This document shows, one piece after another, positions 33,281-36,928 of a DNA stretch of 44,283 bases (within the stretch, counting starts at the first letter, position 1; every line of letters begins with the position of its first letter). The position numbers and the translations under genes are program-made. The stretch is from Desulfuromonadales bacterium. Its GTDB lineage: Bacteria > Desulfobacterota > Desulfuromonadia > Desulfuromonadales > JAHYIW01. The notes beneath the pieces are model-generated. The model was not told where the DNA came from. It saw nothing but the letters and a program-made list of their open reading frames with translations, and did no database searches. The stretch spans positions 1 through 44,283 of the forward strand of contig JARGFI010000003.1 in assembly GCA_029210745.1 (NCBI GenBank). The letters run 5' to 3'.

Positions 33281-34669
33281 ATGACTCAGGATAAACGAAA
33301 TTTTCAACTGCTGGTTGTCGATGACGACTCCAGTCTCAGAGAGTTTTTGACCATTATGCTGGAGCGCGAAGGCTACCGGGTGACGGCTGCAACCGACGCA
33401 CTAACCGCGTTGAAGGTGCTGCGCTCCGGCCGTTTCGATTTGATTCTCAGTGACATCAAGATGCCGGGGATGAGTGGCGTTGAACTGCTCGATGTGGTCA
33501 CAGCAGAAGCCCCGGAGACGATCGTGGTGATGATGACCGCTTTTTCCTCGACCGAAGACGCCGTTGATGCCATGAAGCGGGGCGCCTATGACTACATCGT
33601 CAAACCGTGCGATAACGATGAATTGCGCCTGGTTATCAGCAACGCACTCGAACGTAAAGCCCTTAAACAGGAGAATGTACGGCTCAAGAAAGAGTTGAAC
33701 AAACTCCAGTCGTTTTCCGGCCTGGTCGGCAAAAGCAAGGCAATGCGTGCGGTTTATGAGCTGATTGACAAAGTCGCTGACAACCGGGTTTCAGTGCTGA
33801 TCACCGGCGAGAGTGGCACCGGCAAAGAAATCGTCGCGCGGGCCATTCATCAACAAAGTTCGAGAAAAAATAACCCGTTCATTGCTGTAAACTGTGGCGC
33901 GATTCCTGAAAATTTGCTCGAAAGCGAACTGTTCGGTTACGAAAAAGGGGCGTTCACCGGTGCCGAGCGGCAGAAATCCGGATTGATGGAAGAGGCTGAA
34001 GGCGGCACCCTGTTCCTTGACGAAATCGGCGAACTGCCGCAACTGATGCAGGTCAAACTGCTGCGGGTGCTGCAAGAGAGCGAGGTTCGCCGGGTCGGGG
34101 GGAGCCGCTCGGTCAAGCTGGATTTTCGTTTATTGACCGCCACCAACAAGAATCTGACCGATGAGGTTGCCGCCGGACGTTTTCGTGAAGATCTTTATTA
34201 TCGGCTCAATGTCATCGAGCTGCGTCTGCCCCCGTTAAGAGATAAAAAAGAGGATGTTCCGCAACTGATCAAATATTTTTGTGCGCGTAGAAACGCCGAG
34301 GATGTCGTCGTCGCAGAAGATGCCTTGCGCTGCCTGACCGCTTATCATTGGCCGGGGAATGTCCGTGAGCTGGAAAATGTGGTTGAGCGCTGCCTGGTAT
34401 TGGGGCAAACGAACGTTATCGAGAAAAGCTGCCTGCCGGTCGAGTTGGTAAGCCCCTGTGCCTCTCCGGAGGTGGCGGTCCATTTGCCTGCCGACCCCTT
34501 CGATCTCGATGCCTATTTGCTCACGATTGAAAAATCGTTACTGTTGGCCGCGTTGCAGGAAGCGGGTGGGGTCAGAAAAAAAGCCGCCGCACGCCTCGGC
34601 ATGACCTTCCGCTCGATCCGTTACCGACTGGCCAAGTTTGATCTGGACCGGGAAGAGGAGGCGGAGTGA
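33281..34669 (+). CDS. pilR: Sigma54-dependent response regulator PilR
   Basis: 462-residue activator: receiver domain (8-122, phospho-acceptor D58), AAA+ domain with GESGTGKE (176-183), the sigma54-contacting loop GAFTGA (223-228) and Walker B FLDEIGE, and a Fis-type HTH at 420-455 ([19 protein letters not shown]). Start ATG 33281 has GTGGAG upstream. It should act on the -24/-12 promoter in front of pilA. Its last 54 codons are part of a 192-bp direct repeat copied after a toxin-antitoxin insert, yet this copy is intact and in frame. Confidence 0.95.
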
Positions 34670-34697
34670 ATTGTGACGTTTTGTGTTTCAAAGGTGA
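34506..34697 (+). repeat. 192-bp direct repeat, copy 1 (pilR 3' end plus 28 bp)
   Basis: Identical to 35745-35936 except at five positions (187/192). It covers codons 409-462 of pilR, the stop, and the following 28 bp. Four of the five differences are silent third-position changes; the fifth changes Ala to Val near the C-terminus. Confidence 0.97.
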
Positions 34698-34701
34698 TAA
34701 A

Positions 34702-34986: not shown

Positions 34987-35325
34987 TCAATAAGGCTCTT
35001 CTTTCCAGCAAAAACGATTTTTCCCACCGATCCTGATATTTAAAAGAAGTATCGGCTCAGCGGGGTCAGGTGGAACCCAGTAAAGAACAAGGAAATTTCG
35101 GGCGCTGGCATCCAGCACATATTCCCTCACCGTTATCTTTTTGCCTTGGATCGACCTTCGTCTTGCAGGGGCAATCTCGTCAAACGCGGAAATATTCTCT
35201 ACCATTGACCGGTAGCTTTGCTGCAAGCGTTCCACAAAACGAACCGCACCTAATTCAGCATACTCGTCAAGAAATTCTTTCAATCGGCGAGCAAACAAAG
35301 GTGTGGCGACAACCTCCCTGGTCAT
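34987..35325 (-). CDS. RelE/ParE-superfamily toxin
   Basis: 112-residue small toxin of the ParE/RelE fold: helical hairpin at residues 8-45 (FARRLKEFLDEYAELGAVRFVERL), then beta strands with KKITVREYVLDASARNFLVLYW and LLNIRIGGKNRF. It is encoded downstream of the antitoxin with a 4-bp start/stop overlap (35322-35325), the usual order for parDE-type pairs. Its target (gyrase for ParE, ribosome-bound mRNA for RelE) cannot be told from sequence. It lies on the strand opposite to the pil genes, within the duplicated pilR region. Confidence 0.78.
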   Translation of the reverse strand: MTREVVATPLFARRLKEFLDEYAELGAVRFVERLQQSYRSMVENISAFDEIAPARRRSIQGKKITVREYVLDASARNFLVLYWVPPDPAEPILLLNIRIGGKNRFCWKEEPY

Positions 35326-35600
35326 CCTCTTTTCTTCTCAACAACAGCCTTAGCCCGAGCAAAAGCATGATCGAACAGGGCATCAATCTTTGCGGCAGGC
35401 TCACAAACGCCCGTTAACTCATACTCTTCCCATGCCGCAAATGCTTCTGCTTCAAACTGAATATCAGCCTCGGCTGCTTCAATTGCCGGAGCGCCAATCG
35501 CCTCAAGCACGGCTCCCATCGGCCTGCCGATTTTTTTTGATAGAGCTTCCAGCCGCTCGGCAAATTTATCATCCACCCTTAAATTAAGTTGCCTGGTCAT
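35322..35600 (-). CDS. Ribbon-helix-helix antitoxin
   Basis: 92 residues. The N-terminal part (3-45, RQLNLRVDDKFAERLEALSK) fits a ribbon-helix-helix DNA-binding fold. The acidic/Ala-rich C-terminal half (46-90) would wrap the toxin. ATG 35600 follows AAAGGGG. It probably represses its own promoter through the TGCTAGCA repeats 28-45 bp upstream. Confidence 0.78.
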   Translation of the reverse strand: MTRQLNLRVDDKFAERLEALSKKIGRPMGAVLEAIGAPAIEAAEADIQFEAEAFAAWEEYELTGVCEPAAKIDALFDHAFARAKAVVEKKRG

Positions 35601-35744: not shown

Positions 35745-35908
35745 TCGATGCCTATTTGCTCACGATTGAAAAATCGTTACTGTTGGCCGCGTTGCAGGAA
35801 GCCGGTGGGGTCAGAAAAAAAGCTGCCGCACGCCTCGGCATGACTTTCCGCTCGATCCGTTATCGACTGGCCAAGTTTGATCTGGACCGGGAAGAGGAGG
35901 TGGAGTGA
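35745..35908 (+). pseudogene. pilR 3'-terminal fragment
   Basis: Encodes the last 54 residues of PilR (the Fis-type helix-turn-helix and tail) in an open frame to the stop at 35906-35908, with a single Ala-to-Val change. It has no start, receiver or AAA+ domain and no evident ribosome-binding site in that frame, so it is a fragment and not a gene. Confidence 0.9.
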
Positions 35909-35936
35909 ATTGTGACGTTTTGTGTTTCAAAGGTGA
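35745..35936 (+). repeat. 192-bp direct repeat, copy 2
   Basis: Second copy of 34506-34697 with five substitutions. Its left edge is abrupt: the bases before it (35687-35744) show no similarity to pilR. Confidence 0.97.
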
Positions 35937-36035
35937 CAAGTTTTGTCTCATGTTTTCACGGTAGCGGGGGAGGGTGTTCGTAAAACGGTTTGCACTATGT
36001 AAAAGACTCTTCCATGCAAGTCAAAAAAATCACCC

Positions 36036-36098: not shown

Positions 36099-36131
36099 TT
36101 TTTCTTTTGATCGTACGGGTCACTTGCAATT

Positions 36132-36147
36132 TGGTATGTTGCTTGCT
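36132..36147 (+). promoter_or_regulatory. Sigma54 (-24/-12) promoter of pilA
   Basis: TGGTATGTTGCTTGCT: GG (36133-36134) and GC (36145-36146) are separated by exactly 10 bases, and TTGC is canonical. The transcript would start near 36158, leaving a leader of about 97 nt before pilA. It fits with the sigma54 activator PilR encoded just upstream. Confidence 0.82.
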
Positions 36148-36254: not shown

Positions 36255-36467
36255 ATGTTGAAGAAGTTCAGAAAGAATGAAAAGGGTTTTACCCTGATCG
36301 AGCTGCTGATCGTTGTCGCGATCATCGGTATCCTGGCCGCGATTGCCATCCCGCAGTTCGCATCCTACCGGCAGAAGGCGTTTAACTCGGCTGCCCAGAG
36401 TGACCTGAAGACGATCAAGACCACGGTCGAAGGTTACTACACCGACGAATACTACTACCCCTACTAA
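36255..36467 (+). CDS. pilA: Short type IV pilin PilA (geopilin), highly aromatic
   Basis: Major pilin, 70-residue precursor. The class III leader ends in Lys-Gly before FTLIELL, so PilD cleavage after residue 11 gives a 59-residue mature protein with the N-terminal helix FTLIELLIVVAIIGILAAIA and no globular C-terminal beta domain, as in Geobacter. Mature aromatic residues are F1, F24, Y27, F32, Y50, Y51, Y55, Y56, Y57 and Y59; the tail EGYYTDEYYYPY has six Tyr. AAGGAG lies nine bases before ATG 36255. An in-frame TTG at 36225 could give a longer leader but lacks a ribosome-binding site. It is driven by the sigma54 promoter upstream. Confidence 0.97.
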   Translation: MLKKFRKNEKGFTLIELLIVVAIIGILAAIAIPQFASYRQKAFNSAAQSDLKTIKTTVEGYYTDEYYYPY

Positions 36468-36492
36468 TTGTGACGGCAAAGGAGGATACAAA

Positions 36493-36879
36493 ATGAATAA
36501 GGTGATGATTATCGGTTTGTTGTTTGTTACGACGTTTTTTATGGCGTCGAGCGCTTTTGCTGCCAACTTTGATTCTGCTACCGGCGAGATTACGATCGGT
36601 GGGTCAAACGCTACCCCTACGAAAATTATTGGTCTTTCCAAAGGTGTGATCGTGCGCTATGAAAACCCTGGCACTGCTGCCCCTTCTGCTCAGTGGTATA
36701 CGGTGTCCAGCGTGCACAGTGGTGGTAACGAAGGTTACGCCACAGCCCAAAATCTGACCAATATTATGAAGCAGGCATTTCCTACCGGTTCCACAGCTGC
36801 AGAGATTGCAACTTTTTTGCAGAGCATGCCTGATGCAGAAGCTTCGGTTGCGAACTGGATTGGCTGGTCGACACAATAA
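36493..36879 (+). CDS. Secreted PilA-C/Spc-like pilin partner
   Basis: 128 residues with a Sec signal peptide (1-24, cleavage after AFA). The mature part FDSATGEITIGG...LSKGVIVRYENPG...WYTVSSVHSGGNEGYATA resembles the globular C-terminal pilin domain (PilA-C, or Spc, 'short pilin chaperone') that in Geobacter relatives is encoded separately downstream of the short pilin. It has an extra C-terminal helical tail of about 40 residues (NLTNIMKQAF...VANWIGW). It is 25 bases after pilA with a strong AAAGGAGG and ends at a terminator, so it is co-expressed. I propose that it stabilises PilA before assembly; this is inferred. Confidence 0.75.
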   Translation: MNKVMIIGLLFVTTFFMASSAFAANFDSATGEITIGGSNATPTKIIGLSKGVIVRYENPGTAAPSAQWYTVSSVHSGGNEGYATAQNLTNIMKQAFPTGSTAAEIATFLQSMPDAEASVANWIGWSTQ

Positions 36880-36900: not shown

Positions 36901-36928
36901 AAAAGCCCTTCTTAATGGAGGGCTTTTT
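36901..36928 (+). terminator. Terminator of the pilA-spc transcript
   Basis: Nine-bp perfect stem AAAAGCCCT (36901-36909) / AGGGCTTTT (36919-36927), with the T-run at the end of the stem and further T after it. Confidence 0.88.

Follow-up and report, generated by a model that had tools for sequence, protein, structure and literature searches.

The gene directly downstream of pilA in a 44,283-nucleotide stretch of a Desulfuromonadales genome (contig JARGFI010000003.1, here called the window) encodes a protein that is well supported as the PilA-C/Spc (GSU1497-like) half of a split type IVa major pilin. With a probability of roughly 0.84, this pilA-C (spc) gene specifies the second half of the pilin, both chains together make up one filament subunit, and the C-terminal tail of 43 residues lies inside the PilA-C domain. 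The identity was deduced from profile matches to solved PilA-C chains, from the position of the gene and from matches in the same reading frame as the pilin helix in 13 PilA hits from 12 genomes. These data bear out the original prediction insofar as it proposed that the missing globular pilin domain is made as a separate Sec-exported protein of the PilA-C/Spc type. The identification is correct and already known for the family, since the split, its origin by gene fission, the structure and the stabilisation of PilA are all published.

The features of the locus are compiled in Table 1. The stop codon of pilA and the ATG of pilA-C are separated by a spacer of 25 nt. By visual inspection, the N-terminus of PilA-C, MNKVMIIGLLFVTTFFMASSAFA, resembles a Sec signal peptide, and a crude script rule for signal peptides was passed by all 31 PilA-C sequences of the alignment described below. 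The Pfam search detected no N_methyl (pilin leader) match in PilA-C of the window, and neither Pfam nor NCBIfam searches of this protein yielded a model above the cut-off. The adjacent PilA, on the other hand, matched the Pfam model N_methyl (1.4e-11) and the short Geobacter pilins in the PDB (9egp_A, 5e-29; 7tgg_A, 1.7e-24; 2m7g and 6vk9, 4.1e-21), with the best match to chain A of the G. metallireducens structure 9EGP.

Table 1. Features of the pilA-pilA-C locus (window coordinates)
Feature	Position	Strand	Description
Candidate sigma-54 (-24/-12) promoter of pilA	36131..36147	+	TTGGTATGTTGCTTGCT, GG-N10-GC; pattern match
pilA (PilA-N)	36255..36467	+	70 aa; 11-residue leader, then FTLIELL..., end YYYPY; without globular domain
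Ribosome-binding site of pilA-C	36480..36485	+	AGGAGG; direct sequence reading
pilA-C/spc	36493..36879	+	ATG start, 128 aa; signal peptide and globular half of split pilin
Probable Sec signal peptide	36493..36561	+	Residues 1-23, cleavage after AFA; assigned by eye; homologue N-termini hydrophobic
Q86-Q128 tail	36748..36876	+	43 residues; normal PilA-C C-terminal part with predicted strand, length-variable stretch and conserved Trp W125
Intrinsic-terminator-like hairpin and T run	36901..36927	+	3' of pilA-C; 11 pairs

Used as a single sequence against the PDB, PilA-C of the window retrieved 9egp_B, the PilA-C chain of G. metallireducens, with an E-value of 1.1e-5. A profile alignment was then compiled from 31 PilA-C sequences, comprising that of the window and 30 homologues with identities of 18-50% to it. 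This profile matched 9egp_B (4e-20) and 7tgg_a (3.1e-11) over positions 1-118 of 120 as well as 6vk9_D (1.5e-6), a chain without signal peptide, over positions 33-118. All three chains bear the name 'Geopilin domain 2 protein'.

The homologue loci were found by searches with either PilA-C or PilA and represent 32 distinct genomes, in which the gene following each short PilA was read. Open reading frames of at least 90 aa with an ATG within 120 nt were accepted, and the first ATG was taken, by which some N-termini may be too long. The only locus dropped was L039, which was left out of the 31-sequence set owing to an unreadable base. Of the 31 sequences, 19 stem from the 20 loci located through PilA alone, the twentieth being L039, and PilA-C was thus not preselected at these 19 loci.

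The distribution of both genes was surveyed across the order. Single-sequence searches with PilA-C gave matches in 12 of 98 genomes at E 0.01, whereas the profile gave matches in 67 of 136 genomes at E 0.001, the own genome being included in both counts. A single-sequence search of the genome_contigs collection with PilA-C of the window returned no relatives, and a search with the alignment returned four loci. PilA matches at 1e-12 were present in 90 of the 136 genomes (own included), amounting to 131 hits, the best 91 of which (to E 2.1e-16) were classified, with the 40 weaker rows left out. A PilA-C match lay downstream in 57 of these best 91 hits, and in 52 of the 57 split pairs the two matches were 25-85 nt apart; a distance of 289 nt was found in the genome of the L039 locus, and the other four pairs involve the upstream pilin of a tandem. 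In 13 of the 91 hits, belonging to 12 genomes, a weaker PilA-C match (E 3.4e-10 to 5.5e-5) was located in the open frame of the pilin helix itself. Within the same best 91 of 131 hits, 17 long PilA hits lacked a PilA-C match within 600 nt, and four short ones had no PilA-C partner, two of them at contig ends and two being second short pilins in the genus of the window. Conversely, 10 of the 76 PilA-C profile matches were unpaired with any of the best 91 of 131 PilA hits. The linkage of PilA-C to a short pilA on the same strand was seen across the order, the window included.

In the own genome, the profile search revealed one clear PilA-C, namely the gene of the window; another two matches, with E-values of 0.015 and 0.29, began at the signal-peptide end of the profile and covered its positions 1-34 and 1-58 of 120. 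The second short pilins mentioned above are encoded at L080:162-380 (own genome, contig C99) and at L079 2832-3029 on the minus strand (sister species), and they are 69 and 68% identical to PilA of the window. Neither of the two species of the genus that were searched has an adjoining PilA-C match at this second gene, despite downstream sequence being present, and its product may share PilA-C of the window or serve elsewhere. Additionally, tandem short pilins before a single pilA-C were observed in the genomes G038, G015, G068 and G117, where the upstream pilin match is 456-492 nt away from the pilA-C match.

Single-chain pilins of the same order carry the helix and the globular domain on one chain, whereas the window distributes them over two. 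Three of the four single-chain pilin proteins at loci L081 and L082 were subjected to the profile search, and all three matched PilA-C (in a search of four sequences): L081:1586-2131(-) with 9.6e-12, L082:1313-1900(-) with 6.1e-13 and L082:578-1132(-) with 2.6e-12. The C-terminal domains of the first and the third match up to profile position 118-120 and possess a terminal Trp, while the match of L082:1313-1900(-) ends at profile position 98 without an aligned terminal Trp. In general, PilA-C profile matches in fused pilins are weak and often partial. At both loci, the first single-chain pilin is accompanied by an adjacent second one whose C-terminal domain is likewise PilA-C-like (L082:578-1132, minus strand, and L081:851-1213, minus strand, listed from an internal Met); these second genes precede the gene of an ABC-type ATPase, and both genomes have a fused PilA.

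In the mechanism that we propose, PilA, with a mature part of about 59 residues, would supply the long helix only. PilA-C would be exported by the Sec system, lose its signal peptide and form a small beta-sheet domain packed against PilA. Each pilin subunit would thus consist of two chains, PilA and PilA-C, like the subunits of the PilA-N/PilA-C pili of Geobacter. The tail of 43 residues that starts with QNLTN would be part of this domain, as one strand, a portion of variable length and an end segment that carries the conserved Trp. By analogy with the solved Geobacter structures, a 1:1 packing of both chains and their presence in the filament would be expected, and the literature on GSU1497 suggests that PilA stability would likewise require PilA-C.

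The Geobacter proteins provide the closest points of reference. PilA-C/Spc of G. metallireducens (9EGP chain B) is the best PDB match of the window protein by sequence, profile and fold, although it is shorter with 113 residues. PilA-C of G. sulfurreducens (GSU1497; 6VK9, 7TGG) likewise consists of a signal peptide and a domain, with 124 residues compared with 128 in the window, and its gene also directly follows a short pilA (PMC5174107). It differs in being reached by the profile only, with no match of the single window sequence at E 10, and in the variable residues that lead from the last common strand to the Trp.

A different role, in which PilA-C/Spc acts mainly in the periplasm as a chaperone ('short pilin chaperone'), stabilising PilA prior to assembly, and is no stoichiometric component of the filament, appears unlikely to us. 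The name Spc was given to the G. metallireducens homologue as a putative chaperone facilitating pilus assembly (PMC10989804), and GSU1497 is cited as essential for stabilising PilA in PMC5174107, both of which would suit such a role. The same applies to the deletion phenotypes reported in PMC2680965: the maximum current reached 8.01 mA without GSU1497 compared with 14.42 mA in the wild type ('two thirds' in the words of the paper), at a fivefold slower pace, whereas it was 1.20 mA without pilA. This milder effect argues somewhat against PilA-C as an obligate half of the subunit, with current being no direct measure of pili. Moreover, PMC9207759 calls it an artefact that an omcS deletion strain has 6.5 nm filaments containing PilA, which also suits a chaperone. 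On the other side, the cryo-EM filaments of two species contain both chains, according to the titles of 6VK9, 7TGG and 9EGP, and the PilA-C matches in single-chain pilins place the domain within the subunit.

The original prediction had further described the C-terminal part of the protein (QNLTN...WSTQ) as a helical extension of about 40 residues beyond the PilA-C-like part, possibly a new interaction module on a shorter core. Tail lengths were counted on the alignment column of Y82, a conserved Tyr/Phe. After this position the window protein has 46 residues, compared with a range of 34-65 and a median of 43 in the 31 rows, and eight of the 30 other rows have a longer tail. Counted from Q86 to the end, the corresponding values are 43 residues, 31-62 and 40. 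A count starting one residue after Y82 gave 45 residues for the window, 47 for PilA-C of G. sulfurreducens (7tgg_a), in which the C-terminal Trp is aligned as well, and 38 for that of G. metallireducens. In none of the 31 rows does the domain stop before the tail stretch. W125 is kept in at least 90% of the rows, and a Trp occurs among the last 14 residues of 30 of the 31 proteins. In the alignment, the stretch corresponds to the C-terminal end of the 30 homologues and, by profile, to that of the 9EGP, 7TGG and 6VK9 chains; the alignment of its loop is approximate, since the homologues share just 18-50% identity with the window protein. Because the tail lengths are ordinary and W125 is conserved, QNLTN...WSTQ represents the normal C-terminal part of PilA-C.

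A single-chain model of PilA-C was built from five sequences and is of low confidence (pLDDT 58.6), which applies to all structural details given here. It contains strands at mature residues 2-4, 9-12, 21-24, 48-51, 57-61 and 68-72, and its sole helix of at least four residues is AAEIATFLQ at mature residues 79-87. A Foldseek search of this model against the PDB ranked 9egp_B first (E 0.023, probability 0.99, TM 0.43-0.47, rmsd 7.8), 7tgg_a third and 6vk9 14th, with no match reaching E 0.001. The helical character attributed to the tail would thus apply to at most nine of its 43 residues, whereas IMKQA is modelled as a strand.

An additional module is very improbable. The nine-residue helix and three tail residues of the window protein that are missing from the nine other rows of alignment A2 could be quoted for it. 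The claim nevertheless fails on the comparison of lengths among relatives: the supposed extension lies within the family range, is two residues shorter than its counterpart in G. sulfurreducens, aligns with the C-terminus of the 9EGP and 7TGG chains, contains the conserved Trp, and is in part a predicted strand. A more limited role is conceivable, with a low probability, for the length-variable residues that separate the last common strand from the terminal Trp (PTGSTAAEIATFLQSMPDAEA in the window protein, which may form a short helix). They would decorate the pilus surface, diversify between species and determine what the filament binds; the same place would then vary in single-chain pilins as well. 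That the gene instead encodes an unrelated small exported protein adjoining pilA by chance has a negligible probability, as the failure of all curated family models to exceed their cut-off is outweighed by the 4e-20 profile match to a solved PilA-C chain, by which this candidate was ruled out, and by the linkage to short pilA genes across the order.

The genetic surroundings were examined as well. The Geobacter pilA gene is under sigma-54 control, and the GG-N10-GC pattern upstream of pilA matched once in the window compared with 0.07 matches expected, with at least one match in seven of 100 shuffles; the pattern was composed after the site had been seen, so this evidence is weak. A terminator scan over 1 kb detected four sites compared with 1.1 expected, two overlapping at the hairpin downstream of pilA-C, which has the most pairs among the four terminator-like sites listed, and two on the opposite strand. 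The position of this hairpin is consistent with a joint pilA-pilA-C transcript. Upstream of pilA, a PilT-family ATPase exceeded its family cut-off, and a PilC/GspF-like protein, a sensor kinase and a sigma-54-type response regulator scored below the curated cut-offs; judging from their position, the latter three are probably PilC, PilS and PilR. An O-antigen-ligase-like protein and an ABC-type ATPase are encoded downstream of pilA-C.

This region also contains a 195-nt direct repeat (34506-34700 and 35745-35939, 97% identical), a duplication of the 3' end of the gene for the sigma-54 regulator. Its copies flank a unit of two minus-strand genes (34987-35325 and 35322-35600), of which the 35322-35600 product has a ribbon-helix-helix match below the cut-off (E 0.029) and is perhaps an antitoxin. 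In the sister species (locus L083), the two-gene unit likewise lies upstream of pilA, and the second repeat copy is represented there by about 69 nt.

The analysis removes the false lead of a new tail module and contributes a further split-pilin pair, which is well supported and comes from a Geobacter relative. The searched genomes of one order indicate that PilA-C together with its tail is a single homologous domain, present also, at weaker scores, in single-chain pilins, which fits the published account of an origin by gene fission.
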